From a virus, in the IMG/VR virus record IMGVR_UViG_3300018080_000148, positions 25,923 through 89,922 of that record: a stretch of DNA of 64,000 bases. The stretch is one strand, 5' to 3'. The notes beneath the pieces were generated by a model. The model saw only the letters and a list, made by a program, of their open reading frames with translations. It was not told the origin of the DNA and did not search any database. The position numbers and the translations under genes are program-made. How positions within the stretch are numbered: the first letter of the stretch is position 1; each line of letters opens with the position of its first letter. Positions 22,279 through 49,081 of the stretch are shown piece by piece.

Positions 22279-22313
22279 AACGCACTCCTTCACATGGGGC
22301 TGGGGAAAAACAG

Positions 22314-22399
22314 TGGCCGAGGCGGGACTTGAACCCGCACGGGCGTTACCGCCCACAGGATTTTAAATCCTGAGTGTCTGCCAATTCCACCACTCGGCC
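22314..22399 (-). tRNA. tRNA-Leu (UAA), copy 1
   Basis: A class II cloverleaf: acceptor GGCCGAG/CTCGGCC, anticodon loop TTTAAAA between CAGGA and TCCTG, a variable arm GTGGGCGGTAACGCCC and T arm GCGGG/CCCGC. CCA is not encoded. The last 54 nt of the HNH gene overlap its 5' half on the same strand. Confidence 0.95.
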
Positions 22400-22849
22400 C
22401 AACACTTTCGCTCGCAACTCTTCGAGTGTCATGTCGTGGTCTTTCTTGACCTCATTACACCGACTGCACAGTAGTTGCAAGTTGGACTCTTCTGTTTTGC
22501 CGCCTTTGGACTTGGGGGTTATATGATCCATGGTCATCAGGACCGCTCTGCCGCTCTTAAACACTCCATAGAGGTTGAAGTGAGGCGGTCTAGCACCACT
22601 GGATTCCAGCCAGAAAAACTTGCCTTCGACACCACAGCACGCACACTTTTGGGTGCGGCCCAAAAGCTTCATGCGTTCACCACTCATTTTCACATTGAAA
22701 GTTCGCCATTGACCATCAACCTGCGCACGAACCTTCCACCGTTTTGGCCCAATCCGATTGAGAACCGGGCTGAGCCAAAACTTGGCAATTCGCTTCATCC
22801 CTCTCGGGGTGGGGTCTTGGAGTTTTCTCATAGCGGGCCAATGCATCAT
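22346..22849 (-). CDS. HNH endonuclease running into tRNA-Leu (167 aa)
   Basis: The zinc/HNH core is CACCGVEG near residue 78, TMDHITPKSKGG near 115 and LLCSRCNEVKKDH near 134, the ββα-metal nuclease pattern of HNH homing-type enzymes. The start at 22849 overlaps the upstream stop. The final 18 residues (GRVVELADTQDLKSCGR) are simply a translation of the tRNA-Leu gene, so the natural C-terminus is shaped by the tRNA. If RNase P cuts at the tRNA 5' end, the mRNA loses its stop codon. Confidence 0.8.
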   Translation of the reverse strand: MMHWPAMRKLQDPTPRGMKRIAKFWLSPVLNRIGPKRWKVRAQVDGQWRTFNVKMSGERMKLLGRTQKCACCGVEGKFFWLESSGARPPHFNLYGVFKSGRAVLMTMDHITPKSKGGKTEESNLQLLCSRCNEVKKDHDMTLEELRAKVLGRVVELADTQDLKSCGR

Positions 22850-23319
22850 TCCATTCCTTGTGCGATCTTTACCTCGTTGAGCAGTTCTTCGGACCAGACG
22901 GTCCACGTAGGGTCTGACCAGGGCGGGTCTTTGTTGATGTCGTCGGGATTGACTTTGAGCACACAGTAGTCACCATTTTCCACCTGATGAAACTCAATGA
23001 TTTTGACGTTTTTCTTGTAGTCGTTGCTTACATCATAGGCAGCAAGCGGACGACCGGTTTTCCCTTCTTTTACAACCGGCTCTCCCAATCGCAAATTGCC
23101 ATCCTCCATAACCCGCACTGTCTGGGCGGTAAAACCCAATTCAGTGTGAGGAAGCATAATTGCCCGCTCAATGTCGTCCGGTTCTTGGACGTAGTAGTTG
23201 CCGTCCTCATAGCGGCATTTGGTTTTTTCTGGCTGTTGTGTTCGCAGGTAGAAAACTGTTGCAAGAACGATCAACAGGGCCATGACGGCGAAAGTGAGGC
23301 CATTACGTAGCTTCGTCAT
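22846..23319 (-). CDS. Membrane-anchored hypothetical protein (157 aa)
   Basis: An N-terminal signal anchor (residues 8-25, LTFAVMALLIVLATVFYL) is followed by a soluble domain of about 130 residues, probably outside the cytoplasm. It has two cysteines (KCRYEDG and DYCVLKV) that could pair. The stop overlaps the start of the HNH gene. Function unknown. Confidence 0.55.
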   Translation of the reverse strand: MTKLRNGLTFAVMALLIVLATVFYLRTQQPEKTKCRYEDGNYYVQEPDDIERAIMLPHTELGFTAQTVRVMEDGNLRLGEPVVKEGKTGRPLAAYDVSNDYKKNVKIIEFHQVENGDYCVLKVNPDDINKDPPWSDPTWTVWSEELLNEVKIAQGME

Positions 23320-39908: not shown

Positions 39909-40358
39909 TTAGCTCAGTTTTGTTACAGTGCGGTTGTAATGCCACTGGCGGGCGAATTCCTCGGCCTGTTCTTCGTCGTCTTCTAGCCCCTCTGCTTCTT
40001 GTATGGCGTGAGCCAATTCATGAGCGATGGTGGTCTCCACCCCAAGTTCTACAGGCAGGTCGTATTTTTCGCAGGCACCTCTAATTGCCTCAGTATCCAG
40101 AACGATTACGGGCTCTGAAACCGTGCCGTTAGAATACCTGCCCAGTTTGCCACCAAGAGAATGAGGTGCGGCATAGAACACGGTGAAATTCTTGAAAAGC
40201 CGCAGTTGTGGCAAAAGTTTTTCTCTCATTTCCAGGACCGTCTTTTCGACGATACCCTTCATGTCCTTGTTGGGCGATTCGTGTGGCTCATAATCCCATT
40301 CGGGATCGTAATCATGTGTCCGGTCGTCGTACCGATAAAGCCACTTAGAAAAACTCAT
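39909..40358 (-). CDS. Zincin-like metallopeptidase with capsid-targeting-like start (149 aa)
   Basis: HELAH in TTIAHELAHAIQEAEGL near residue 115 is the HExxH zinc site, and a downstream acidic helix (EEQAEEFARQW) can give the third ligand. The N-terminus MSFSKWLYRYDD resembles the F-x-x-W-L start of the probable head-packaged proteins, but lacks the following Glu. A good GGAGGTGG ribosome site precedes the start, unlike the leaderless genes. The gene starts 14 nt after tRNA-Leu(GAG). A protease delivered with the head or made after infection are both possible. Confidence 0.55.
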   Translation of the reverse strand: MSFSKWLYRYDDRTHDYDPEWDYEPHESPNKDMKGIVEKTVLEMREKLLPQLRLFKNFTVFYAAPHSLGGKLGRYSNGTVSEPVIVLDTEAIRGACEKYDLPVELGVETTIAHELAHAIQEAEGLEDDEEQAEEFARQWHYNRTVTKLS

Positions 40359-40372
40359 TTCCACCTCCAAAG

Positions 40373-40457
40373 TACCCAGGGCGAGACTCGAACTCGCACC
40401 CCCGGAATGGGGACTAGGCCCTCAACCTAGCGTGTCTACCAATTCCACCACCTGGGC
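40373..40457 (-). tRNA. tRNA-Leu (GAG)
   Basis: Class II cloverleaf with acceptor GCCCAGG/CCTGGGT, anticodon loop TTGAGGG between CTAGG and CCTAG, a GC-rich variable arm and T arm GCGAG/CTCGC. Its first 44 nt overlap the 3' end of the SET-domain gene. CCA is not encoded. Confidence 0.95.
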
Positions 40458-40893
40458 GTATGAATTTCTTTTTTATTTTTGTCCTAATGGGCTTTTCTGG
40501 CGTTTGGCAATCCAACCTACTTGGGCTGCCGTAGTGGCCCAATATCTCTTCTCCTGATTTAATATCACGGTTAAAAATATATAGCACCCTGCCGTCATCT
40601 GTCTGGACTAAAGTCGCATTTTGTTGTCGCACGGTCGGTGCCTGATTGACGATGCCCCCAATTCCCATGGGAACCAAGCTGTGCTCTCTGCCATCGGCAA
40701 AAAACTTGTAGTTGTGAGCGTATTGTGTGCAGTTGTCTTCAAGAGACCCGTATTTCACCTTGGCTCCGATAACCTCGATGAAATCCCCTTTCTTCAGATC
40801 TACCAGGGCAAAGACGCCTCGGCCTGCATTCGGGATCGTGGAGGCTGCTATCCGGTATTTACGAAGGTTTTCTTCGGGCTCTTGGAAAATCAT
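40414..40893 (-). CDS. SET-domain protein ending inside tRNA-Leu (159 aa)
   Basis: This is a compact SET domain. NAGRGVFALVDLKKGDFIEV near residue 23 is the N-SET motif, GGIVNQAPTVRQQNATLV near 78 is the region that usually reads NHS, and FNRDIKSGEEILGHYG near 108 is the C-SET motif. SET proteins methylate lysines, so a phage version could target host or phage proteins. NQAP replaces the usual NHS, which may change activity. The last 15 residues are translated from tRNA-Leu sequence. Confidence 0.7.
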   Translation of the reverse strand: MIFQEPEENLRKYRIAASTIPNAGRGVFALVDLKKGDFIEVIGAKVKYGSLEDNCTQYAHNYKFFADGREHSLVPMGIGGIVNQAPTVRQQNATLVQTDDGRVLYIFNRDIKSGEEILGHYGSPSRLDCQTPEKPIRTKIKKKFIRPGGGIGRHARLRA

Positions 40894-40905
40894 TCCTTAA
40901 TAGAG

Positions 40906-41029
40906 TGGCCGGGACTGGAATCGAACCAGTGACCTTTGGGGGAACAGCTTGAGAGGTAACTATGAGCCTTTCGGCGTCGTGCAATCAAGCGTCTTGTCCC
41001 AATGCTCTACCAACGTGAGCTACCCGACC
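40906..41029 (-). tRNA. tRNA gene with 50-nt insertion in the anticodon loop (possibly Asn)
   Basis: All other parts of the cloverleaf are standard: acceptor GGTCGGG/CCCGGCC with A73, D arm GCTC/GAGC with ACGTTGGTA loop, anticodon stem TTGGG/CCCAA, variable AGGTC and T arm ACTGG-TTCGATT-CCAGT. The anticodon loop is 57 nt instead of 7. Inside it GCTTGA pairs with TCAAGC and GCC-GAAA-GGC makes a small hairpin. The only register with U33 places GUU as the anticodon, giving Asn, but then 37 and 38 are both C, which is unusual. It must be spliced or is non-functional. Confidence 0.7.
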
Positions 41030-41223
41030 TTATTTTTGCCCTCCCAACTGACTCCGTGCGTCACGCTGAGGTAACGACACAATTCGTCGGCTGCGTCTTG
41101 GGGGAGAGAGGCAATTCTGTCACCAAGCTCCCGAATGTAATCTTCCTCAAAAGCAGTTCCAGTGGTTGTTGTAGGCGGTTTGATTCCATCGCCTTGTGTT
41201 TGCGTACAACCGTATCCGTTCAT
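41020..41223 (-). CDS. Small hypothetical protein (67 aa)
   Basis: MNGYGCTQTQGDGIKPPTTT begins the protein and a helical second half (IRELGDRIASLPQDAADEL) follows. AGGAG lies 8 nt before the ATG. The stop codon lies 10 nt inside the 5' end of the following tRNA gene. Confidence 0.45.
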   Translation of the reverse strand: MNGYGCTQTQGDGIKPPTTTTGTAFEEDYIRELGDRIASLPQDAADELCRYLSVTHGVSWEGKNKVG

Positions 41224-41257
41224 AGACACCGCTCCTATTGATGGGGTTCGTTTTTAG

Positions 41258-41337
41258 TGAGCAGGGCAGGAATTGAACCTGCAACTACTGGTTGCGACAT
41301 CGGCTTTGTAACTGGTGGACTTTCGCCCACACCGCTC
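41258..41337 (-). tRNA. tRNA-like gene, anticodon not assigned
   Basis: T arm GCAGG-TTCAATT-CCTGC is clear and the ends pair (GAGCGG with CTGCTC, extended by flanking AGT/ACT). GTGG/CCAC could be the D stem, but its loop GCGAAAGT lacks the conserved GG. The anticodon arm cannot be folded with a 7-nt loop containing U33; GTTAC and GCAAC pair with one mismatch around 12 nt. It may be another tRNA with an insertion or a decayed copy. Confidence 0.5.
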
Positions 41338-41375
41338 ACTCTCCAGCGTGCTTACCAGAGCACCTCCCGCCCAAT

Positions 41376-41564
41376 TTAGCCGCCAAATTGGACTCGTGCG
41401 TAATCTGTCAAAAGGTGATGGATTCTTCGATGTGCCACTTTTTTGGCGTTAAAGTCTGCCAACTTGCCACCGAGGTAGGCATCAAGCAGTTCTTGGTCAG
41501 TCAATAACTCGGCCATGTCTGCGTTGATACTTCTGATTTTCGCTTTCGATACGTTGATAGACAT
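41376..41564 (-). CDS. Small hypothetical protein (62 aa)
   Basis: [20 protein letters not shown] begins a helical protein that ends in [14 protein letters not shown]. The stop is 38 nt upstream of the tRNA-like gene, and tRNA-Leu(CAG) ends 31 nt before its start. Function unknown. Confidence 0.45.
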
Positions 41565-41595
41565 CCTTTTTTCCTTATGCGGGCGGGGGATGTAG

Positions 41596-41679
41596 TGCCC
41601 CTGGCAGGACTCGAACCTGCACGGCCTTGCGGCCACAGCATCCTGAATGCTGCGTGTCTACCATTTCCACCACAGGGGC
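41596..41679 (-). tRNA. tRNA-Leu (CAG)
   Basis: Acceptor GCCCCTG/CAGGGGC, anticodon loop TTCAGGA between CAGCA and TGCTG, variable arm with GGCCGCAAGGCC and T arm GCAGG/CCTGC. It starts 1 nt after the stop codon of the membrane-protein gene at 41681. Confidence 0.95.
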
Positions 41680-41680
41680 A

Positions 41681-41920
41681 TTAGCTTGGGGGTGGGAACC
41701 CCGGATTGTCGTTCTTCTTTTTCTGTTTATCATCCTTGAATGTTGGTGTCCACGCCAACATGATCCAACATGTGATCCCAAACACTGCCAGTGTTACCGA
41801 AATCGACCACGGCAACATATTCACCTTCTCGGTCATCTTGAAGGCAACGGCGTCGGCTACGCCGAAGCCTCCTACGCAGATGGCCACTAAGATGGCAACA
41901 CTCTTTACAATTTTTATCAT
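41681..41920 (-). CDS. Small membrane protein (79 aa)
   Basis: Two membrane helices (VAILVAICVGGFGVADAVAF and ISVTLAVFGITCWIMLAW) are followed by a Lys/Asp-rich cytoplasmic tail and a Pro-rich end. GGAGAGGTCC precedes the start. It sits between two tRNA-Leu genes, 1 nt from one and 14 nt from the other. Confidence 0.55.
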   Translation of the reverse strand: MIKIVKSVAILVAICVGGFGVADAVAFKMTEKVNMLPWSISVTLAVFGITCWIMLAWTPTFKDDKQKKKNDNPGFPPPS

Positions 41921-41934
41921 GGACCTCTCCTAAG

Positions 41935-42016
41935 TAGCCCCGGAGGGAGTCGAACCCTCACGCCTTGCGGCACTGGATCTTAAATCCAGCGTGTCTACCG
42001 ATTTCACCACGGGGCC
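41935..42016 (-). tRNA. tRNA-Leu (UAA), copy 2
   Basis: Acceptor GGCCCCG/CGGGGCT, anticodon loop TTTAAGA between CTGGA and TCCAG, variable arm TGCCGCAAGGCG and T arm GAGGG/CCCTC. Unlike copy 1 at 22314, position 37 is G. A dispersed GTGTGG-element lies 10 nt upstream of its 5' end. Confidence 0.95.
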
Positions 42017-42025
42017 TTGCAACCG

Positions 42026-42047
42026 TTTTCCCCACTAGCCACACTTA
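42026..42047 (-). promoter_or_regulatory. Dispersed GTGTGG-element before tRNA-Leu (UAA)
   Basis: This 22-mer is identical to 43535-43556, which also precedes a tRNA-Leu. On the minus strand it reads TAAGTGTGGCTAGTGGGG followed by AAAA. It may be a promoter or processing element for the tRNA downstream. Confidence 0.5.
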
Positions 42048-42218
42048 TGGTGGAACGGCAAACATGCTGTAACATTCGATGCTCCGCTCCCTAAGGTCTC
42101 TTTGTTCTTCTTTGGAAAGCTTCTCGCAATCCTTGCAGGGTCCGTCACCGTTGAAGTGCTCTTCGGCGTACACCTCTAAACAGATTGGGCACTGAAATTG
42201 TATGGGGCCGAGGCTCAT
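42045..42218 (-). CDS. Small zinc-ribbon protein (57 aa)
   Basis: CPIC near residue 9 and CKDC near 27 form a zinc ribbon, followed by an acidic/basic helix (LSKEEQRDLRERSIE). The start at 42218 is 5 nt from the stop of the M23 gene. Function unknown; nucleic-acid binding is plausible. Confidence 0.5.
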   Translation of the reverse strand: MSLGPIQFQCPICLEVYAEEHFNGDGPCKDCEKLSKEEQRDLRERSIECYSMFAVPP

Positions 42219-42222
42219 TGTT

Positions 42223-42762
42223 TTACCTGGGGTTTTGTGCGCTTTCAATCAAGTGTGTTGTTGGATCAAGTAGGCCGAATGGTTGGCTCTCACCTTTCTC
42301 CCACACGCCGTTGCTCAGGAAGCCGTGGCGATGCATGGCAAGGTGGAGCATGGAGGTTGGTCTGCCCTTGTCCTTCTTGAGCACTCGTTTGACGTGCCCG
42401 ATCAGGTCGCCTTGTCGCACCTCTTTTTCCTGAATGTAGAACTTTTGTTTTCCCTCGACGGTGGATTCCCCGATAACTCGAAAGCCGTGGTGCTTGATTT
42501 CCCCATAAACTACGATCCCGCTATTGCCCGCAACTGATACGGCCCATGTGTTCTCCCACCAATCACACCCCGCCACTTTGCCCGTGAATGGCCGAATGTG
42601 GCAAAGCACTCCATCTTCTACGGCGAAGACTTCAGTTCCTTCAGGACAATAAAGATCCACGCCCTTGTGAACGTCATGCCGCCGCTCGATGCCAAAAGCG
42701 CCGACATGCGGCTTGATGGGTATCTCCACTTCCGAAGTAATGTCGATATACTGAAAAGACAT
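42223..42762 (-). CDS. M23-type metallopeptidase (179 aa)
   Basis: HDVHKGVDLYCPEGTEVFAV near residue 30 holds the H-x-x-x-D zinc motif, and SMLHLAMHRHG near 140 holds the H-x-H motif of LytM/lysostaphin-type peptidoglycan endopeptidases. There is no signal peptide, so export for lysis would need a holin, or it may be a virion wall-degrading enzyme. Its first 89 nt overlap the ParB-like gene. Confidence 0.75.
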   Translation of the reverse strand: MSFQYIDITSEVEIPIKPHVGAFGIERRHDVHKGVDLYCPEGTEVFAVEDGVLCHIRPFTGKVAGCDWWENTWAVSVAGNSGIVVYGEIKHHGFRVIGESTVEGKQKFYIQEKEVRQGDLIGHVKRVLKKDKGRPTSMLHLAMHRHGFLSNGVWEKGESQPFGLLDPTTHLIESAQNPR

Positions 42763-43078
42763 CGAGTTGGAAGTGGGCCCTAACTTCTTCATCTTCAATG
42801 GAAACAACCAAGTCACTGACCTCTCCTCTCACGCTGCGATAGAGGAAATCCTTCTCCACCAAAATATACTCATATTTACGCAAAAAGCGCCGTCCAGCCA
42901 GCCAAGCGGCAACGGTGCGGTGGTGTCCATTTTCGATTGCCATCGTACCGTCCGCCAGTCGAGCTATTTGGATTGGTTCTACGTATCCACCTTGCCTTAT
43001 CTCTTCCACTAGCTTCGGCAACTGGTGTGCTCGATTCAACCGGTGTTGTGTTGTTTTAAGTTTTGCAATGTCTATCAC
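42674..43078 (-). CDS. ParB/sulfiredoxin-fold protein (134 aa)
   Basis: LPKLVEEIRQGGYVEPIQIA near residue 20 and DGTMAIENGHHRTVAAWLAG near 43 match the ParB N-terminal fold, with GHHR as the nucleotide-binding box. It lacks the DNA-binding domain of true ParB. Free-standing versions in phages act as nucleases, CTPases or modifiers. It overlaps the M23 gene by 89 nt and the receiver-like gene by 4 nt. Confidence 0.65.
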   Translation of the reverse strand: MIDIAKLKTTQHRLNRAHQLPKLVEEIRQGGYVEPIQIARLADGTMAIENGHHRTVAAWLAGRRFLRKYEYILVEKDFLYRSVRGEVSDLVVSIEDEEVRAHFQLDVFSVYRHYFGSGDTHQAACRRFWHRAAA

Positions 43079-43443
43079 AGGCCACCCGCTCCATCTTGTT
43101 TGAGTCGCCTTTTTAGATTAGGGAATGGAACCTGTTCTACCTTGTAGTTGTGGCGAAGGGCATCTTCCATCCTTTGTGCGCCTCGCCTATTTGTCGAGTG
43201 GATGATGACCTTCTTTATTTGCGGCCTTTCTTGAGCAAGCCATTTTGCGGCTACTGCTCCATTTTTGCCCTCGTAACCCGGTGCCTCTTCCAAGTCGTGA
43301 TCGAGTAGGGCTAAATCCCATTCTCCTAGCACGACTCGACGCTTCAGGTCTCTAAATCTCCTACACACAATGGCGTAGGGGAAGTGTTTCAGGAGAAATT
43401 CCAACCGCACCTTCCAACGGTCTTCCAAAATTATTACGTTCAT
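43075..43443 (-). CDS. Cyclic-phosphate-processing receiver-like (cREC) protein (122 aa)
   Basis: VIILEDRWKVRLEFLLKHF near residue 3, WDLALLDHDLEE near 43 and KVIIHSTNRRGAQRMEDAL near 77 match the cREC family, a receiver-like domain in which LDHDL and HSxN are the hallmark motifs. The family has been linked to RNA repair and conflict systems, where it may open cyclic phosphates. Next to a tRNA array this suggests a link with cleaved-tRNA repair. It starts 3 nt after tRNA-Leu(CAA). Confidence 0.6.
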   Translation of the reverse strand: MNVIILEDRWKVRLEFLLKHFPYAIVCRRFRDLKRRVVLGEWDLALLDHDLEEAPGYEGKNGAVAAKWLAQERPQIKKVIIHSTNRRGAQRMEDALRHNYKVEQVPFPNLKRRLKQDGAGGL

Positions 43444-43445
43444 AG

Positions 43446-43530
<85 letters not shown>

Positions 43531-43534
43531 TTGT

Positions 43535-43556
43535 TTTTCCCCACTAGCCACACTTA
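43535..43556 (-). promoter_or_regulatory. Dispersed GTGTGG-element before tRNA-Leu (CAA)
   Basis: Identical 22-mer to 42026-42047, in the same position before a tRNA-Leu gene. It fills nearly the whole gap between the stop of the gene at 43557 and the tRNA. Confidence 0.5.
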
Positions 43557-44036
43557 TTACGCCGTTTCCCCACGCATGAACCTGCGAGCCATCTGCCAAC
43601 CCCTTTCTGTTGCCTCAAACCTCGCCACTGGCGAACTTTCTCTGCCGAAGTGTGGGTCGATTTGCTTGGCGTCATCGGCTGGGGCGTTGCCCTCGTAAAC
43701 CATGATCTTGTGGCTGTTCGGACAGTTTGGGTAATGAACCCACAGAGCCGTCCAGTAACACTCTTCTGCCCGCCGCAGGATCGTGAACACCTCTTCCTTC
43801 TCGTCGATCATCTTGATCGCTTGAAGATGTTCTGCCTGGATCACGAAATCCACGTCAGGGTCAAAGTCTGTCAAGTCGTTCATGCCGACCGCAAACAACA
43901 CCTTGTCGTCGTCCACATCAGCCAACACGATCACATCGCTTTTTGGTCCGCCCAAGAATTGGAATCTGCCAATTCTCTGAGGGTGGTGTGGGTGACCCGA
44001 TACAACCTTGTACTGTGTGTCATAGACCAGATTCAT
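43557..44036 (-). CDS. Hypothetical protein (159 aa)
   Basis: A soluble alpha/beta protein starting MNLVYDTQYKVVSGHPHHP, with two Cys near the middle and an RxxMRGE end. GGAG lies 6 nt before the ATG at 44036, and the start overlaps the upstream stop. Function unknown. Confidence 0.5.
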   Translation of the reverse strand: MNLVYDTQYKVVSGHPHHPQRIGRFQFLGGPKSDVIVLADVDDDKVLFAVGMNDLTDFDPDVDFVIQAEHLQAIKMIDEKEEVFTILRRAEECYWTALWVHYPNCPNSHKIMVYEGNAPADDAKQIDPHFGRESSPVARFEATERGWQMARRFMRGETA

Positions 44037-44311
44037 TCTAGACTCCATTCGTTGGGATGCGCCACTTCCAGTTCTTGCTCAGGAAGCCTTTCCTGATACA
44101 CTTCTTGGATTGACTGCCGCACCTTGAGCTTCTCTTCCATCGTCAACTCTCGATGAACCGTAAACTTCATCGTGACGATCTCACTTCTGAGACTCATCTT
44201 TTCGGGAAAGCCGAAACCGTGCATGGTCTCGTTGACCGAATCAACTATTTCCCCAACCGAGGAAAAGACCTTGCCCAGATTGCACGTGATGGGAATGAGA
44301 TACGTTGGCAT
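44033..44311 (-). CDS. Hypothetical protein (92 aa)
   Basis: A small alpha/beta protein: MPTYLIPITCNLGKVFSSVG at the start and a beta strand (EIVTMKFTVHREL) before a charged helix. AAGGAG precedes the start. The start is 15 nt after tRNA-Leu(UAG). Function unknown. Confidence 0.5.
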   Translation of the reverse strand: MPTYLIPITCNLGKVFSSVGEIVDSVNETMHGFGFPEKMSLRSEIVTMKFTVHRELTMEEKLKVRQSIQEVYQERLPEQELEVAHPNEWSLE

Positions 44312-44326
44312 GGTTTGCTCCTTCAG

Positions 44327-44408
44327 TAGCCGGGGCGGGACTCGAACCCGCACGCCTTGCGGCACAGGTTCCTAAAACCTGCGTGTCTGCCAATTTCACC
44401 ACCCGGCC
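44327..44408 (-). tRNA. tRNA-Leu (UAG)
   Basis: Acceptor GGCCGGG/CCCGGCT, anticodon loop TTTAGGA between CAGGT and ACCTG, variable arm TGCCGCAAGGCG and T arm GCGGG/CCCGC. The SRP RNA domain ends 2 nt before its 5' end, so RNase P cleavage here would also form the SRP RNA 3' end. Confidence 0.95.
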
Positions 44409-44410
44409 TC

Positions 44411-44456
44411 ACCGCCTTAGGGCTGCTTCGTTTCCGACCTGACCCGGTTCGGCGGC
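44411..44456 (-). ncRNA. SRP RNA domain IV (4.5S-like), minimal
   Basis: On the minus strand GGGTCAGGTCGGAAACGAAG followed by CAGCCC reproduces the conserved tip of bacterial SRP RNA. In E. coli 4.5S RNA the tip reads GGTCAGGTCCGGAAGGAAGC. The tetraloop here is GAAA closed by a G-C pair where E. coli has GGAA closed by C-G, which is a compensated change. The symmetric TCAG/AGCAG internal loop bound by Ffh is intact. GCCGCC pairs with GGCGGT to close a 46-nt hairpin. No longer arm is visible; a 13-codon frame ends at its 5' edge. It could bind host Ffh and redirect membrane targeting. Confidence 0.8.
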
Positions 44457-44493
44457 TAGACTTCGTTGACGACCTTGCGGAAGCCAACGACAG

Positions 44494-44658
44494 TCATGTT
44501 TCGTTCGTAAACACTTTGTGGATCTGAAAGCGAAGTATCGATAGCTCACGTGGGTGCTCACACTCCTCTTCCACCCATGCCTGAGCCTCTTCGTAGGTGT
44601 TTCTTTCTGCCCTGATTGTCGTCGAACCCCATTCTGTCACAATAAACTTCACTTTCAC
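44494..44658 (-). CDS. Small hypothetical protein (54 aa)
   Basis: A GTG start with GGAGA 5 nt upstream, encoding MKVKFIVTEWGSTTIRAERN, a Glu-rich helix and FQIHKVFTNET. An ATGA overlap leads into a 13-codon frame (44456-44497) that ends at the edge of the SRP RNA. Function unknown. Confidence 0.4.
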   Translation of the reverse strand: MKVKFIVTEWGSTTIRAERNTYEEAQAWVEEECEHPRELSILRFQIHKVFTNET

Positions 44659-44668
44659 GATTGTCTCC

Positions 44669-45004
44669 TTACATCGTCATTTCGTCAACATGCCCCGCAC
44701 TCACAGGGTCGTCGCCCTGGATAGCTGCGATTTTCTCGGCTGCCTCGTTGAGAACTTTGCTGATCTCCAACGCTTTTTCAAAATTCTGCTCCGTCCGCTT
44801 CGCCATCTCGGACAAATACACGGTGGAGAGATTCTGCATGAGTCCTATCATGCGGAAGTTGCACGCCATCATGGCCTTCAGTAGGTAGTCTTCTTGCGGA
44901 AACATGTTTTTATTGTACCCCATGACTAGATAGTTGTGAACCAAGTCTTTTGGTACTATCATCGAGAGGCCCGCCCCCATGGAAACGGGGTGGGCCTTGT
45001 TCAT
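44669..45004 (-). CDS. Hypothetical protein (111 aa)
   Basis: A Met-rich helical protein, MNKAHPVSMGAGLSMIVPKD at the start, with a long second helix (RTEQNFEKALEISKVLNEAAEKI interrupted here for length). The start lies 3 nt after the 3' end of tRNA-Phe with insertion. Function unknown. Confidence 0.5.
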   Translation of the reverse strand: MNKAHPVSMGAGLSMIVPKDLVHNYLVMGYNKNMFPQEDYLLKAMMACNFRMIGLMQNLSTVYLSEMAKRTEQNFEKALEISKVLNEAAEKIAAIQGDDPVSAGHVDEMTM

Positions 45005-45007
45005 GAG

Positions 45008-45102
45008 TGGGCCGGGCTGGAGTCGAACCAGCGACACCTGGATTTTCATTCATGGGGTTGCCTGACCCCTGTCCAGTGCTCTACCAACTGAGCTACCGAC
45101 CC
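45008..45102 (-). tRNA. tRNA-Phe (GAA) with 22-nt hairpin insertion in the anticodon loop
   Basis: The cloverleaf is otherwise perfect: acceptor GGGTCGG/CCGGCCC with A73, D arm GCTC/GAGC with AGTTGGTA loop, anticodon stem CTGGA/TCCAG, variable GTGTC and T arm GCTGG-TTCGACT-CCAGC. The anticodon loop has 29 nt: C, then a segment containing GGGGT-CAGGCA-ACCCC, then TGAAAA. Removing 22 nt after the first loop base leaves CTGAAAA, the standard Phe loop with U33, GAA and A37. The insertion is far too small for a group I intron. Confidence 0.85.
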
Positions 45103-45107
45103 ATATT

Positions 45108-45320
45108 TTAGCAGCAATCAATATAAACCAATGGGTCCATATCGGGGTCCATTTGGTGACCGTTCTTGAGATTGTGGGCGACTTTATATCCCACTGTGCG
45201 AGCAAACCGTTCAAGATCTTCGTGAGTCACCCCATCGAATACTCTTGCATCTTGGTCCCACTTTTTTTTCAGATCATCGTGAACAGACTCGCCTGCCAAT
45301 GCTGTGCTATATGCGCTCAT
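45108..45320 (-). CDS. Small hypothetical protein (70 aa)
   Basis: MSAYSTALAGESVHDDLKKK begins the protein, a helix with AHNLKNGHQMDPDMDP follows and it ends DCC. Its stop is 5 nt upstream of the tRNA-Phe 5' end. Function unknown. Confidence 0.45.
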   Translation of the reverse strand: MSAYSTALAGESVHDDLKKKWDQDARVFDGVTHEDLERFARTVGYKVAHNLKNGHQMDPDMDPLVYIDCC

Positions 45321-45341
45321 TGCGTTTTCCTTTCTGAAGAG

Positions 45342-45426
45342 CGGAAGCGGAGGGAGTCGAACCCCCAAGGCGGTTAAGCTCGTCCCGGTTCGAGCGGGGT
45401 GCAGTCGCCAATCTGCTTGCGCTTCC
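45342..45426 (-). tRNA. tRNA-Ser (CGA)
   Basis: Acceptor GGAAGCG/CGCTTCC with G73, anticodon loop CTCGAAC, long variable arm and T arm GGGGG/CCCTC. The stop codon of the upstream gene lies 1 nt before its 5' end. Confidence 0.9.
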
Positions 45427-45427
45427 G

Positions 45428-45721
45428 TTACTGATCGTATCCAACATTTGATGCTTCATCGATTTCTACATCGATGCCTCGGTCAGTGACCCAAAGACTA
45501 TGTATCAGCCGCCCGATGACGGTGCTCTCGAAGTCGTCCAGTTTGGGGCGGATCTCTCCGATTTGGTCCATTAACGGGTCGGCCAAGTCATCTCGGTCAT
45601 TGGCCAAGTGTTCGTTTGCCTCAACGATCAGTTTGATGCAGCGTTCATAATTGCTCGGTCTTCCACGTTTCGTGGTTGACTTTGCCGCTGTCTTTTTCTT
45701 CGTCGTTTTCTTCTTCGCCAT
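45428..45721 (-). CDS. Hypothetical protein with Lys-rich N-terminus (97 aa)
   Basis: MAKKKTTKKKTAAKSTTKRG begins the protein with a histone-tail-like composition, then RPSNYERCIKLIVEANEHL and an acidic second half. DNA or RNA binding by the tail is plausible. Gap 45728-45867 upstream holds a possible promoter and a short hairpin. Confidence 0.45.
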   Translation of the reverse strand: MAKKKTTKKKTAAKSTTKRGRPSNYERCIKLIVEANEHLANDRDDLADPLMDQIGEIRPKLDDFESTVIGRLIHSLWVTDRGIDVEIDEASNVGYDQ

Positions 45722-45849
45722 TATCATAATCCTCTAGCAAAAAGTGTAGTATAGTACGCACTTGCGCACATTTTTCGCCAAAAGGATTACGACTTTGACG
45801 TTTTAAGTCAAGGCCAACTTCTATACCAAATTGTCAAAGATCAAATCAA

Positions 45850-45864
45850 GCTGGCATTGCCAGC
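45850..45864 (-). terminator. Possible hairpin after the abnormal tRNA-Tyr
   Basis: GCTGGC pairs with GCCAGC across 3 nt, followed on the minus strand by TTGATTTGAT. It is a weak terminator candidate just after three consecutive tRNA genes. Confidence 0.35.
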
Positions 45865-45867
45865 AAG

Positions 45868-46004
45868 TGGGAGAGGTAGGAGTCGAACCTACAAGCCCTT
45901 TCGGGCGTCACGTTTACAGCGTGCTTACCTTGCCAATGGTTGTATGCTTCTAATGTAGGGGACGGTTGCCCGTCCAAGTCTTGAAAGCGTTTAGTTACTC
46001 TCCC
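45868..46004 (-). tRNA. tRNA-Tyr (GTA) with about 55-nt insertion before the D arm
   Basis: Acceptor GGGAGAG/CTCTCCC with A73, anticodon loop CTGTAAA between GCACG and CGTGA, variable arm CGCCCGAAAGGGCTT and T arm GTAGG/CCTAC are normal. D arm ACC-ATTGGCAA-GGT is also recognisable, but 57 nt instead of 2 lie between the acceptor strand and the D stem. That segment contains GGACGG-GCAA-CCGTCC, a 6-bp hairpin with a GNRA loop. A second, normal tRNA-Tyr lies at 46853. Confidence 0.7.
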
Positions 46005-46008
46005 GTTG

Positions 46009-46125
46009 TGGACCGAGCAGGAGTTGAACCTGCATCCTCGCCTTCCAGGGCGCTATGTTACTCGCTGAATCACCGGCGTATTATGTACACTAGCCCACCG
46101 GCTATCAGTTACACACCATCGGTCC
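46009..46125 (-). tRNA. tRNA-like gene with insertion, anticodon not assigned
   Basis: Acceptor GGACCGA/TCGGTCC is a perfect 7-bp match and T arm GCAGG-TTCAACT-CCTGC is normal, but the gene is 117 nt long. TAGCC-GGTG-GGCTA forms a hairpin in the 5' half. Near the T arm CGCC and GGCG could close a 6-nt loop CTGGAA. No standard 7-nt anticodon loop fits. It lies 4 nt from the abnormal tRNA-Tyr and 2 nt from tRNA-Cys. Confidence 0.55.
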
Positions 46126-46127
46126 AG

Positions 46128-46206
46128 AGTCGCCGGGAGGATTCGAACCTCTTACCACGAGTTTTGCAGACTCGCTCCGAGCCATTAGGATTTAGGTTCC
46201 GACGAC
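46128..46206 (-). tRNA. tRNA-Cys (GCA), with 7 extra nt before the D arm
   Basis: Acceptor GTCGTCG/CGGCGAC with T73, anticodon loop CTGCAAA between CGAGT and ACTCG, T arm GAGGT/ACCTC-like with TTCGAAT loop. Nine nt (GAACCTAAA) instead of two separate the acceptor strand from the D stem TCC/GGA. The first 15 nt overlap the 3' end of an HNH endonuclease gene. Confidence 0.8.
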
Positions 46207-46776
46207 ATTCAGCTTGTTGCCTTTGGGTAGGTAGTAAAATTTCCAATTCTTGAATGTTTCTGCCATACATTTTTTCCTGAGTTGTTCTACTGGGAACTTC
46301 TTAGGGAAGGTGTGTATGGTGCGATGACAATTGGGGCACACTACTACCAAATTATCATGTGAATCTGTTCCTCCTTTTTTCTTGGGCACAATATGGTGGA
46401 TGTCGCATGCTGCTTCATTCCACCCACACAGTACGCACTTAATCTTTGCTCTCTTGAGGATCTTTTGCTGTGTTCTTTTTGAAAACTCAAGTATGCTTTT
46501 GGCGTCTTCTTTGCAATATGCTACTTTCCTTTTACATTGTTCGCAGTGTTTTTTCCTGCTTTGACGGATCTTTTTACTCTCGAATGCTTTCCCGCATTTT
46601 TCACAAGTGTATTTGTGTAGCTCGTGGGGGTGCGATGCTGCCCATGCGGCAACCGAACTAGCAATTTTTTCTCTCGTTTGTTTGTTGTGACTTCTGCTCT
46701 TGGCGCACGATTCACTGCAAAATCGCCCGGAGCCAAATGTCCCATCATGTTTTTTGTTGCATTTTTCACACTTCAT
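46192..46776 (-). CDS. HNH endonuclease in the tRNA array (194 aa)
   Basis: CEKCNKKHDG near residue 3 with FCSESCAKS, a second finger CEKCGKAFES with CEQCKRK, and the nuclease core CVLCGWNEAACDIHHIVPKK near 115 followed by NLVVVCPNCHRTIH near 142 make a zinc-finger-rich HNH enzyme of the homing type. It ends 15 nt inside tRNA-Cys and is directly followed by three tRNA genes with abnormal length. It may target tRNA-gene sequence and so relate to the insertions. Confidence 0.85.
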   Translation of the reverse strand: MKCEKCNKKHDGTFGSGRFCSESCAKSRSHNKQTREKIASSVAAWAASHPHELHKYTCEKCGKAFESKKIRQSRKKHCEQCKRKVAYCKEDAKSILEFSKRTQQKILKRAKIKCVLCGWNEAACDIHHIVPKKKGGTDSHDNLVVVCPNCHRTIHTFPKKFPVEQLRKKCMAETFKNWKFYYLPKGNKLNVVGT

Positions 46777-46852
46777 TGTTCAGCCTCCGATTTATCTATC
46801 GGAAACTGAACTTGTTTTGAGTGTAAAAAAATTCACATTTTATCAGGTTCAG

Positions 46853-46938
46853 TGGGCCGAGAGGGACTTGAACCCCCAAGCACCTTACGGTGACGTGGTT
46901 TACAGCCACGGACGCTACCAATTACGCTCTATCGACCC
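46853..46938 (-). tRNA. tRNA-Tyr (GTA), normal
   Basis: Acceptor GGGTCGA/TCGGCCC, anticodon loop CTGTAAA between CGTGG and CCACG, variable arm CACCGTAAGGTG and T arm GGGGG/CCCTC. The last base of the upstream gene's stop codon is its first base. Confidence 0.95.
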
Positions 46939-47210
46939 TACTCTTTCTTGGGCGGCTCCTTCGGCAAGGAGTCACCTGTGTTGTCTCTATGTCTCCTTAT
47001 CATTTGTTCTGGTGTATCGGGGATTTCAGTCGGCTCTCCTGCTGATAAAACCACCCAACCATTTGTCCAGTGTCCGTAATCGTCTTTCAGCTTGACGACG
47101 CCCCCAACCTTTGCAAACTTCTCTGGGATGTATGACACCATCGTGGAGATGCCGGTTCGGGTTTTTCTTTCCATATAACACTGGCAATACTTTACGGTTT
47201 TCTTGCTCAT
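46938..47210 (-). CDS. Hypothetical protein (90 aa)
   Basis: The protein starts MSKKTVKYCQCYMERKTRTG, contains a beta-rich middle (GGVVKLKDDYGHWTNGWVV) and a Pro/Lys tail, and ends exactly at the tRNA-Tyr 5' end. Function unknown. Confidence 0.5.
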   Translation of the reverse strand: MSKKTVKYCQCYMERKTRTGISTMVSYIPEKFAKVGGVVKLKDDYGHWTNGWVVLSAGEPTEIPDTPEQMIRRHRDNTGDSLPKEPPKKE

Positions 47211-47235
47211 TTTCGCATCGTAATGCTCCTTTCAG

Positions 47236-47318
47236 CGGAGGCGACAGGACTCGAACCTGCAAGGCTTTCGCTCGACGGTTTTCAAGACCGCTGCCGTCGC
47301 CAATCGGCTTGCGCCTCC
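47236..47318 (-). tRNA. tRNA-Ser (TGA)
   Basis: Acceptor GGAGGCG/CGCCTCC with G73, anticodon loop CTTGAAA between GCGGT and ACCGT, variable arm GAGCGAAAGCCTT and T arm GCAGG/CCTGT. Confidence 0.95.
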
Positions 47319-47375
47319 TCGCTAGGGCCGAGGGGCGGTGGATCGTCCATGCCGCCCGAGGGCCCGTATAGTTTG

Positions 47376-47723
47376 TTATGGATGCACCTCAAAGTGAATC
47401 CCAGAGCCATGGCTTCCATGGTGGCTCCCATTTCGGCAGTACGGACAAGTGCGATAATCACGCCCATGACGACAGTTGTTGAAATCATGTCGGCAGTGAG
47501 GGCAGCTAACCGCACTGTAACCGTGCCTGCACCTATATGCGTTTCGGCAGTGAGGACATGTTCGATAATCATATCCGTGACGACATCTGGCTACGTGTGG
47601 CTGATGATGTCCACGTTCAATAATTACCGGCCTTTGCTGCCTTGGCTGGCAGTCGTGATGACAGGAACAACCTGTCACGAAAGCCAGCAACAGTAGAACA
47701 AATAACGAAGTGACAACTTTCAT
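47376..47723 (-). CDS. Lipoprotein with three Cys/His repeats (115 aa)
   Basis: A lipobox (LAFVTGCSC, Cys near residue 19) marks a lipoprotein. The mature part contains three repeats of 17-18 residues, CRHGYDYRTCPHCRN, CRHGYSAVSCPHCRH and CRHGRDYRTCPYCRN, each with C-x-H and CPxC. Each repeat could bind a metal. His-rich ends flank the array. Such a protein would sit on the outer face of the membrane. A surface-exclusion or metal-binding role is possible; no family is recognised. Confidence 0.65.
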   Translation of the reverse strand: MKVVTSLFVLLLLAFVTGCSCHHDCQPRQQRPVIIERGHHQPHVARCRHGYDYRTCPHCRNAYRCRHGYSAVSCPHCRHDFNNCRHGRDYRTCPYCRNGSHHGSHGSGIHFEVHP

Positions 47724-47773
47724 CTTCCCTCCTATTGAAAGAGTCCGTCACTTGTATCTACTGTTATTACTAG

Positions 47774-47845
47774 TGGAAAGGGTAGGAATCGAACCTACGA
47801 CGCCCTGGTGTTCAGTCAGGCGCTCTACCACTGAGCTACCTTTCC
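47774..47845 (-). tRNA. tRNA-Phe (GAA), with A31-C39 mismatch
   Basis: Acceptor GGAAAGG/CCTTTCC with A73, D arm GCTC-AGTGGTA-GAGC, anticodon loop CTGAACA between CCTGA and CCAGG, T arm GTAGG-TTCGATT-CCTAC. The last stem pair is A-C and position 37 is C, both unusual. The first 10 nt overlap the stop of the upstream gene. Confidence 0.8.
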
Positions 47846-48009
47846 ATTGCTCTTTGGTTTAGTCTCCTGTTTTCCTTTCTCTTCTCTTTCTTGGCCACAC
47901 GACTTTCGCTGACCTTTTTCTGGTGAGCAAACCACCCCGCCCAGTCCATACGGCCAGTCGGCATGCCGCCACCGGAACCGGGCATCTTCTTGATACGTTT
48001 GTATCGCAT
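47836..48009 (-). CDS. Small basic protein (57 aa)
   Basis: MRYKRIKKMPGSGGGMPTGR begins the protein and AKKEKRKENRRLNQRAMER ends it, so it is strongly basic and may bind nucleic acid. It starts 14 nt after tRNA-Ser and ends 10 nt inside tRNA-Phe. Confidence 0.45.
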   Translation of the reverse strand: MRYKRIKKMPGSGGGMPTGRMDWAGWFAHQKKVSESRVAKKEKRKENRRLNQRAMER

Positions 48010-48022
48010 GGCTTCTCTCCAG

Positions 48023-48111
48023 CGGAGGGCATGGGAATCGAACCCACCGCTCCCCGTAGGGAGCACCTGCTTTCCAAGCAGGCCCGGCTAACCAATATCC
48101 GGCTACCCTCC
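48023..48111 (-). tRNA. tRNA-Ser (GGA), copy 2
   Basis: Acceptor GGAGGGT/GCCCTCC with G73, anticodon loop TTGGAAA between CCTGC and GCAGG, long variable arm CTCCCTACGGGGAG and T arm GTGGG/CCCAT. Confidence 0.95.
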
Positions 48112-48159
48112 AAGTTTAGTTGCAACTTTCAATTGAAGTTGCGACTTTCAATTCCATGC

Positions 48160-48191
48160 AGCCAAATGTAACAAAAGTGTTATATTTGGCT
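48160..48191. other. 14-bp hairpin between two tRNA-Ser genes
   Basis: AGCCAAATGTAACA pairs with TGTTATATTTGGCT with one mismatch and a 4-nt loop. A second hairpin GCAACTT/AAGTTGC lies at 48122-48142. It may guide processing between tRNA-Ser(GCU) and tRNA-Ser(GGA). Confidence 0.4.
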
Positions 48192-48203
48192 ACACTTAAC
48201 AAG

Positions 48204-48291
48204 CGGAAGCGACAGGAATCGAACCTGCACCGGTAGTTGGCCGGAACGCTTTAGCAGAGCGCCGCTACGAACCAATATTAGCCTCGCTTCC
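48204..48291 (-). tRNA. tRNA-Ser (GCT)
   Basis: Acceptor GGAAGCG/CGCTTCC with G73, anticodon loop CTGCTAA between GCGCT and AGCGT, variable arm TCCGGCCAACTACCGGT and T arm GCAGG/CCTGT. The first 27 nt overlap the 3' end of the upstream gene. Confidence 0.95.
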
Positions 48292-48498
48292 ATCTTCGAT
48301 GTCTCTCAGAGCCACGTATGCTCGCCACCAAGGGCGATTGGGCCTGAAGTCATCATTCAGTTTCGTTCTGCTCCCATCCTCGTGTATCTGGAAGATGTCG
48401 TTTCCGTCTTGTTCTACTTCTATTCCCAGTTTCCAAGCTAACTCGTGACAGTTCTTCTTGAAGTCAGCCTCTACTCCTGATCCCCATTCCCATCGCAT
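48265..48498 (-). CDS. Hypothetical protein ending inside tRNA-Ser (77 aa)
   Basis: MRWEWGSGVEADFKKNCHEL begins the protein, with FQIHEDGSRTKLNDDFRP in the middle. Its last 9 codons are tRNA-Ser sequence. It overlaps the upstream gene by 28 nt. Function unknown. Confidence 0.45.
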   Translation of the reverse strand: MRWEWGSGVEADFKKNCHELAWKLGIEVEQDGNDIFQIHEDGSRTKLNDDFRPNRPWWRAYVALRDIEDGSEANIGS

Positions 48499-48905
48499 AA
48501 AGCCTCAACCGTTTCCTGAAGTTCCTCAAGCGTGTAGCACGCTCTTGCATTCCTTGCGCCCTCTCCCTCTCTGAACACACCCGCCCAGGCTGTTTCGTCG
48601 CCCGGTTCACTCCCGAACGGAAAGATCCTGATTACGATGTTGCCGATGCGACCGCAGATCAGGTCTCTCTGTTCATAAGAGATAGCGCCCTGTTCACGAA
48701 TCCACTCGACGGCATCTTGCATCAATTGTATCCTCCGATCAATTCGTTTCATAATTCCGCCGATCTTGCTCGCCGCCTCGCCGAACGAGGCGGCGAGCTT
48801 TTGATCGGCGTCTGACTTCGCCTGCTCCTGTTCGTCTCTGTGCTCGGCGGCACTTTGGTCCAGGACGTGCGTGACGAGGTTCAGTTGCTTTGTCAGTTCG
48901 TCCAT
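48471..48905 (-). CDS. Hypothetical coiled-coil protein (144 aa)
   Basis: The first 60 residues are a long helix rich in Gln, Glu and Ala (LTKQLNLVTHVLDQSAAEH and onward). A compact part with Cys near 83 and 121 follows. It is the first gene after the terminator at 48929 and so may start the tRNA operon transcript. Function unknown. Confidence 0.5.
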   Translation of the reverse strand: MDELTKQLNLVTHVLDQSAAEHRDEQEQAKSDADQKLAASFGEAASKIGGIMKRIDRRIQLMQDAVEWIREQGAISYEQRDLICGRIGNIVIRIFPFGSEPGDETAWAGVFREGEGARNARACYTLEELQETVEALCDGNGDQE

Positions 48906-48928
48906 TTTTCCCTTTTTTAAAAACCAAA

Positions 48929-48965
48929 AGCCCCCTGGAACGGCTCTGATCCGTTCCAGGGGGCT
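48929..48965 (-). terminator. Rho-independent terminator (- strand)
   Basis: AGCCCCCTGGAACGG pairs with CCGTTCCAGGGGGCT (15 bp), followed on the minus strand by CTTTTGGTTTTT-like sequence. It lies just downstream of the structured element at 48985. Confidence 0.85.
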
Positions 48966-48984
48966 CGACCCTACTTATGTTATT

Positions 48985-49081
48985 CCCCGTCGTCAGTCTG
49001 GAACAGATCCTTCACCGTCGCTGCTAAATAGCAACGAGGATAAAAGGTGTGAACAATAGCAGTTCAGACTGCGTAGCGGGG
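48985..49081 (-). ncRNA. Candidate small structured RNA with its own terminator
   Basis: CCCCG (48985-48989) pairs with CGGGG (49077-49081) and CAGTCTG (48994-49000) with CAGACTG (49065-49071), with balanced internal loops. An inner hairpin around TGCTAAATAGCA completes a branched structure of 97 nt. No gene fits here, and a strong minus-strand terminator lies 20 nt downstream. This is the layout of an independent small RNA. The family is not recognised. Confidence 0.5.

Follow-up and report, generated by a model that had tools for sequence, protein, structure and literature searches.

Short hairpin inserts in the tRNA genes of a phage genome fragment, other phages and some gut bacteria

The tRNA genes of bacteria and their phages are not known to harbor introns other than large ones that splice themselves. 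Group I introns, which are self-splicing and have a conserved catalytic core, are longer than about 200 nt. Bacterial Y RNAs, for their part, mimic tRNAs and bind Ro60. The tRNA introns of archaea and eukaryotes are described in one account as short, removed by proteins and sometimes located at unusual positions (PMC4090602). According to a survey of jumbo phages, a small subset of these phages has TROVE proteins (PMC7824862), and the PDB contains a phage Ro60 structure (9l5y). The genome paper of phage Aeh1 listed a tRNA-Val along with predicted tRNA pseudogenes, and reported no group I introns in its sequenced T4-like genomes (PMC1524935). Our literature search, which lay outside preprints and most subscription journals, found no report of short introns in phage tRNAs and none linking the protein family DUF2828 (PF11443) with tRNA.

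The stretch of DNA analyzed here (the window) comprises 64,000 nt, bases 25923-89922 of the virus record IMGVR_UViG_3300018080_000148, which is a fragment of 89,922 bases. Phage genes identified include those for a Gp23-type capsid protein, a DnaB helicase and a family A DNA polymerase; a search of IMG/VR with three of the phage's proteins found no close relative. Every tRNA gene of the window lies on the minus strand and six of them are interrupted (Table 1). The original prediction had pointed to three interrupted tRNA genes (Tyr, a 117-nt gene and Cys); all three are real, but it had missed the interrupted Phe, Asn and 41258-41372 genes as well as intact copies of Tyr and Phe. Each of the window's 18 canonical T arms has an acceptor partner pairing at 7/7 positions at a distance of 72-137 nt, whereas the chance expectation is about 7% for each, which argues that the interrupted genes are not chance matches. 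Acceptor pairing is 7/7 and the T arm is intact in each of the six. Two further observations concern this region: a SET-domain protein gene lies within the tRNA cluster, and a match to the bacterial small SRP RNA (41.9 bits, cut-off 40) overlaps the 5′ end of a tRNA-Leu gene.

Table 1. Positions of the features discussed (window coordinates unless a locus number is given)
Feature	Position	Strand	Remarks
Interrupted tRNA-Tyr(GUA), 137 nt	45868..46004	minus	insert ~54 nt, ~45942-45997; hairpin 45960-45975
117-nt tRNA-like gene	46009..46125	minus	acceptor 7/7, T stem 5/5; TAGCC/GGCTA at 46091-46104
tRNA-Cys(GCA), 7 extra nt	46128..46206	minus	extra nt at ~46193-46199, overlapping HNH stop codon
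HNH endonuclease gene, tRNA-Tyr-linked	46192..46776	minus	3′ end overlaps tRNA-Cys by 15 nt
Intact tRNA-Tyr(GUA)	46853..46938	minus	76 nt upstream of HNH gene
Intact tRNA-Phe(GAA)	47774..47845	minus	second, uninterrupted Phe copy
Interrupted tRNA-Phe(GAA)	45008..45102	minus	22-nt insert in anticodon arm, ~45049-45070; 0/100 shuffles
Interrupted tRNA-Asn(GUU)	40906..41029	minus	50-nt insert in anticodon loop, ~40947-40998; 0/100 shuffles
Asn insert motif GAAAGGCTCATAGTTAC	40956-40972	minus	
Interrupted tRNA-like gene	41258..41372	minus	~42-44 nt extra in anticodon region; 3/100 shuffles
Motif GAAAGTCCACCAGTTAC in 41258-41372 gene	41308-41324	minus	
Second HNH gene	22346..22906	minus	3′ end overlaps tRNA-Leu (22313-22399) by 54 nt
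SET-domain protein gene	40414-40893		
Small SRP RNA (bacterial) match	44391-44474		
DUF2828-family locus, BUCT-ZZ01	L130 1369-1612		
DUF2828-family loci, Aeromonas phages	L126-L129, L131		
DUF2828-family loci, bacteria	L144-L207		
DUF2828-family loci, phages	L208-L287		

The predicted insertion of about 55 nt in front of the D arm of tRNA-Tyr was confirmed. ARAGORN calls Tyr(GTA) in this gene once 49-62 nt are deleted, and the best-scoring deletion takes out about 54 nt between the acceptor and the D arm. The complete gene folds with all tRNA arms kept and with an extra hairpin containing GGACGG-GCAA-CCGTCC; without the insert, its cloverleaf beats 97 of 100 shuffles. The seven extra nucleotides ascribed to tRNA-Cys were likewise borne out, in that their removal yields a good tRNA-Cys (0/100 shuffles as good). 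For the second gene, the length of 117 nt and both halves of TAGCC/GGCTA were as described, and its acceptor and T stems are perfect. No deletion produced a credible cloverleaf in it (84/100 shuffles score equally well), and the deletion scan found no readable anticodon arm.

Freed of their inserts, the Phe and Asn genes give cloverleaves that beat 100/100 shuffles, and the anticodon loop of Asn then reads C37-C38. Removing the extra nucleotides of the 41258-41372 gene gives no clean tRNA. The inserts of Asn and of this gene have GAAAG N6 AGTTAC in common, and in both the T arm is 28 nt away. For this motif, which was picked post hoc, 0.00 occurrences would be expected in the window. We defined a GAAAG-AGTTAC insert group as over-length tRNAs in which GAAAG N5-10 AGTTAC precedes the T arm by 22-34 nt, and within the window these two inserts are its only members. 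A scan of IMG/VR for the motif in front of a T arm retrieved 12 further contigs, all 12 with interrupted tRNAs; these are 103-120 nt long, have 7/7 acceptors and fall into three distinct sequence groups. The Tyr insert contains the motif in reverse and lacks a forward copy. A matched scan with the reverse-orientation motif, which doubles as a control for specificity, gave 19 matches and no interrupted tRNA of the motif kind, and the reverse copy in Tyr was therefore treated as chance. A Phe-specific intron pattern was also tried and rejected (4 matches, 0 intact interrupted tRNAs).

These observations bear on whether the interrupted genes are simply decaying tRNA pseudogenes that have taken up insertions and are tolerated on account of intact copies. 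Phage tRNA clusters are prone to recombination, and the intact copies of Tyr and Phe would make the interrupted versions of these two genes dispensable. For the 117-nt and 41258-41372 genes, neither of which can be read cleanly, decay is possible. It is harder to reconcile with acceptors that pair 7/7 and T arms that are intact in all six genes, with insert hairpins that are stable, or with the recurrence in unrelated phages of the motif common to two inserts. As a general explanation, we regard decay as quite unlikely.

A different origin had been put forward in the original prediction, namely that the extra segments may be short mobile elements spread or fixed by the HNH enzyme. Under this model, they might also protect target tRNAs from cutting. 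The protein matches PF01844 (E=1.7e-11) and is classed as having an HNH catalytic domain. As had been noted, its gene ends inside tRNA-Cys, with the stop codon at 46192-46194, and its final codons (GTC GTC GGA ACC TAA) constitute the acceptor strand and the seven extra nucleotides of that tRNA. Because the stop codon falls within the seven nucleotides, these are best read as a probable boundary scar of the HNH gene and not as an intron. The closest relatives of the protein (50-51% identity) are in the Prevotella phages Lak-A1, B1 and C1, where the matching stretch begins no more than about 20 nt from the 3′ end of a tRNA-Tyr(GUA) and is co-oriented with it; here, the HNH gene sits 76 nt 3′ of the intact tRNA-Tyr. 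The overlap of the second HNH gene with tRNA-Leu parallels that with tRNA-Cys. Based on the tRNA-Tyr linkage in Lak phages, the tRNA-Cys boundary and the second HNH gene in tRNA-Leu, the HNH gene probably encodes a tRNA-linked mobile, free-standing endonuclease.

The association of HNH with tRNA genes thus holds through its Tyr linkage in the Lak phages, but it does not extend to the larger inserts, which occur elsewhere without HNH. Of the 285 loci gathered around interrupted tRNAs, only 11 had a detected homologue, which argues that the larger inserts are independent of HNH; in the 12 motif contigs, none was detected within the stretches examined. Half of the interrupted genes in the window (3/6) are not adjacent to the HNH gene but lie about 1-5 kb from it. 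Nor are the extra segments confined to loci with HNH, since interrupted tRNAs are widespread in loci that lack it, and inserts at unusual tRNA positions occur elsewhere too. What speaks for the proposed spread by HNH is that three Lak phages have homologues immediately 3′ of tRNA-Tyr, that the window HNH gene follows an intact tRNA-Tyr at 76 nt and that both HNH genes of the window terminate inside tRNA genes; on the counts above, we consider such spread very improbable.

Short hairpins inserted into tRNA genes occur widely among phages and in some gut bacteria. When tRNAs carrying 20-50 extra nt between the D and T arms were scanned for, at least 119 contigs were returned, and among the matches listed many have perfect acceptors and conserved inserts. 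The commonest family among the listed matches has an insert of 34-60 nt, mostly after position 28 or 29. We refer to it as the DUF2828-linked family and define it by a hairpin followed by ACAGCAA, after nt 28-29 of the anticodon stem; the hairpin loop is usually of the GNNA type. Each of the six hairpin pairs varies on both sides, and 90% of cells are paired; the covariation score of the whole structure is 0.757, compared with 0.211 for shuffled sequences. In-silico removal of the insert produced a perfect anticodon arm (5 bp, U33, R37) in 77 of 150 distinct genes (51%), as opposed to 1.5% when shuffled; about half of the family yields no such arm. With the frame fixed, pair 27-43 forms in 82% and pair 28-42 in 81%, compared with 37-40% when shuffled.

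Carriers of this family include the Aeromonas phages Aeh1, PX29, Ah1, phiAS5 and phiWae14, the Synechococcus phage (cyanophage) BUCT-ZZ01 and bacterial contigs, mostly of Lachnospiraceae. The 122-nt interrupted gene of Aeh1 is annotated as tRNA-Val, and the pair in BUCT-ZZ01 is unannotated; standard tRNA annotation overlooks or misnames such genes. When the window inserts were compared with the model of the family (R1), none aligned to its hairpin or to ACAGCAA. The window inserts lie outside the DUF2828-linked family and are best regarded as further representatives of a wider collection of short hairpins inserted into phage tRNA genes.

Of 18 phage records with an insert of this family, 17 encode DUF2828, as against none of 30 control phage contigs without the hairpin-ACAGCAA family at the locus examined. 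In bacteria, a DUF2828 gene is near the interrupted tRNA in most of 64 matches, typically within a few hundred bases. When loci were fetched by the DUF2828 protein alone, 31/80 had an interrupted tRNA within 4 kb, always co-oriented; at least 580 stretches of phage contigs had a match to the protein. The DUF2828 gene of Aeh1 is Aeh1ORF154c. A structure predicted for DUF2828 (pLDDT 80) has Ro60/TROVE proteins as its 11 best Foldseek matches, with a Z of 16.5 to Ro60/TROVE and about 10 to the next fold. According to this model, DUF2828 would fold like Ro60, and the DUF2828-linked insert probably works with the neighboring Ro60-like protein. Rnl2-type ligases were found in 16/30 insert-bearing and 9/30 control contigs and Rnl1-type ligases in 11/30 and 7/30, an excess of T4-type RNA ligases that is suggestive only because the contigs are fragments of differing sizes. 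Searches of the 89,922-base record (a fragment) that contains the window turned up no gene for DUF2828, TROVE, RtcB or an RNA ligase. Four large unannotated window proteins were considered as DUF2828 candidates and had no match in a profile search.

Several further types of unusual tRNA or tRNA-like gene were noted. One is an insert type with GTTCCTAT after a split hairpin (loci L024 2407-2524, L054, L080, L086, L106 and L107), and DUF2828 was absent from the four records of this type that were searched (L024, L054, L080 and L107). Another consists of tRNA-Ile-like genes with a UAU anticodon, in which the CTTATA(C/T) loop is conserved and the variable region is long (GTATGCNCNAGAT...; L022, L055, L058, L059 and L096). 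In a third, tRNA-like genes have a YTCAWGGYRAAGGRCC hairpin between the D and T arms (L027, L044, L072, L103, L111 and L120). Lak-C1 (L308 774-938) has a tRNA gene that apparently encloses a complete second tRNA-like gene in its anticodon region, and L310 is similar.

A Ro60-fold protein beside the DUF2828-linked family raises the alternative that the inserts stay in the mature RNA, and that these genes encode tRNA-like non-coding RNAs with a protein-binding arm, similar to Y RNAs. Sub-threshold Rfam matches to YrlA (Y RNA-like) at three bacterial loci of the family are consistent with this, as are the half of the family that gains no perfect anticodon arm on removal and the 117-nt window gene, which has no readable one. 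However, latent anticodon arms with U33 and R37 at 51%, against 1.5% when shuffled, would be pointless in a pure mimic, and the window record has no Ro60-like gene. We judge retention of the inserts to be unlikely. The DUF2828-adjacent family points to an undescribed route of processing or using tRNA-like RNAs. It is conceivable, and we suggest it tentatively, that phages and Lachnospiraceae possess a splicing or arming system built from a 34-60 nt hairpin, a Ro60-like DUF2828 particle and an RNA ligase, of which the window inserts would represent another branch.

For the window itself, we lean slightly toward the view that the Tyr, Phe and Asn inserts, and probably that of the 41258-41372 gene, are short intron-like RNA elements. 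The insert would be transcribed within the tRNA and fold into its own hairpin as an extra arm, and its removal would leave an otherwise normal tRNA. Such removal would require cuts at both ends and RNA ligation. Support comes from the cloverleaves that Tyr, Cys, Phe and Asn give once the extra nucleotides are taken out, the 7/7 acceptors and the recurrence of the motif. Against it stand the 117-nt and 41258-41372 genes, which are not clean tRNAs, the C37-C38 of the Asn loop, and a record fragment in which no RNA ligase, RtcB, TROVE or DUF2828 was detected. Short inserts whose removal gives back a canonical tRNA point to one of two things, a new route of splicing or a new class of tRNA-like RNAs in phage tRNA warfare, and the DUF2828 link supplies a candidate protein with a Ro60 fold. 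Since cultured carriers exist (Aeh1, phiAS5, PX29 and BUCT-ZZ01), laboratory testing is possible now.

The inserts can be compared with several described systems. As with the free-standing HNH homing endonucleases of phages, which cut the unoccupied allele at the insertion site, the window has an HNH gene adjoining conserved tRNA genes; unlike in those systems, insert-bearing tRNAs also occur without HNH. As with the group I introns of bacterial and phage tRNA genes, the anticodon region is interrupted, but the window inserts measure 7-57 nt and are too short for a group I intron, which rules this class out; Rfam gave no group I match in window positions 40000-49000 at E<=1. The bulge-helix-bulge introns of archaea and eukaryotes, in which exon and intron pair at both splice sites and a splicing endonuclease cuts, are likewise short and sometimes unusually placed. 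The window tRNAs are bacterial in type (tRNA-Tyr has a long variable arm), and the minimum-energy folds of the window inserts show self-contained hairpins. A splicing or arming system of the kind suggested would differ from both group I and bulge-helix-bulge splicing. The likeness to Ro60/YrlA ribonucleoproteins is in the DUF2828-linked family, where a tRNA-like RNA lies beside a Ro60-fold protein; YrlA (RF02553) had no covariance match in window positions 40000-49000 at E<=1. This protein, not found in the window record, matches Pfam DUF2828, which is separate from Pfam TROVE, and the RNA encoded beside it differs from YrlA in being an interrupted tRNA whose anticodon arm is latent.
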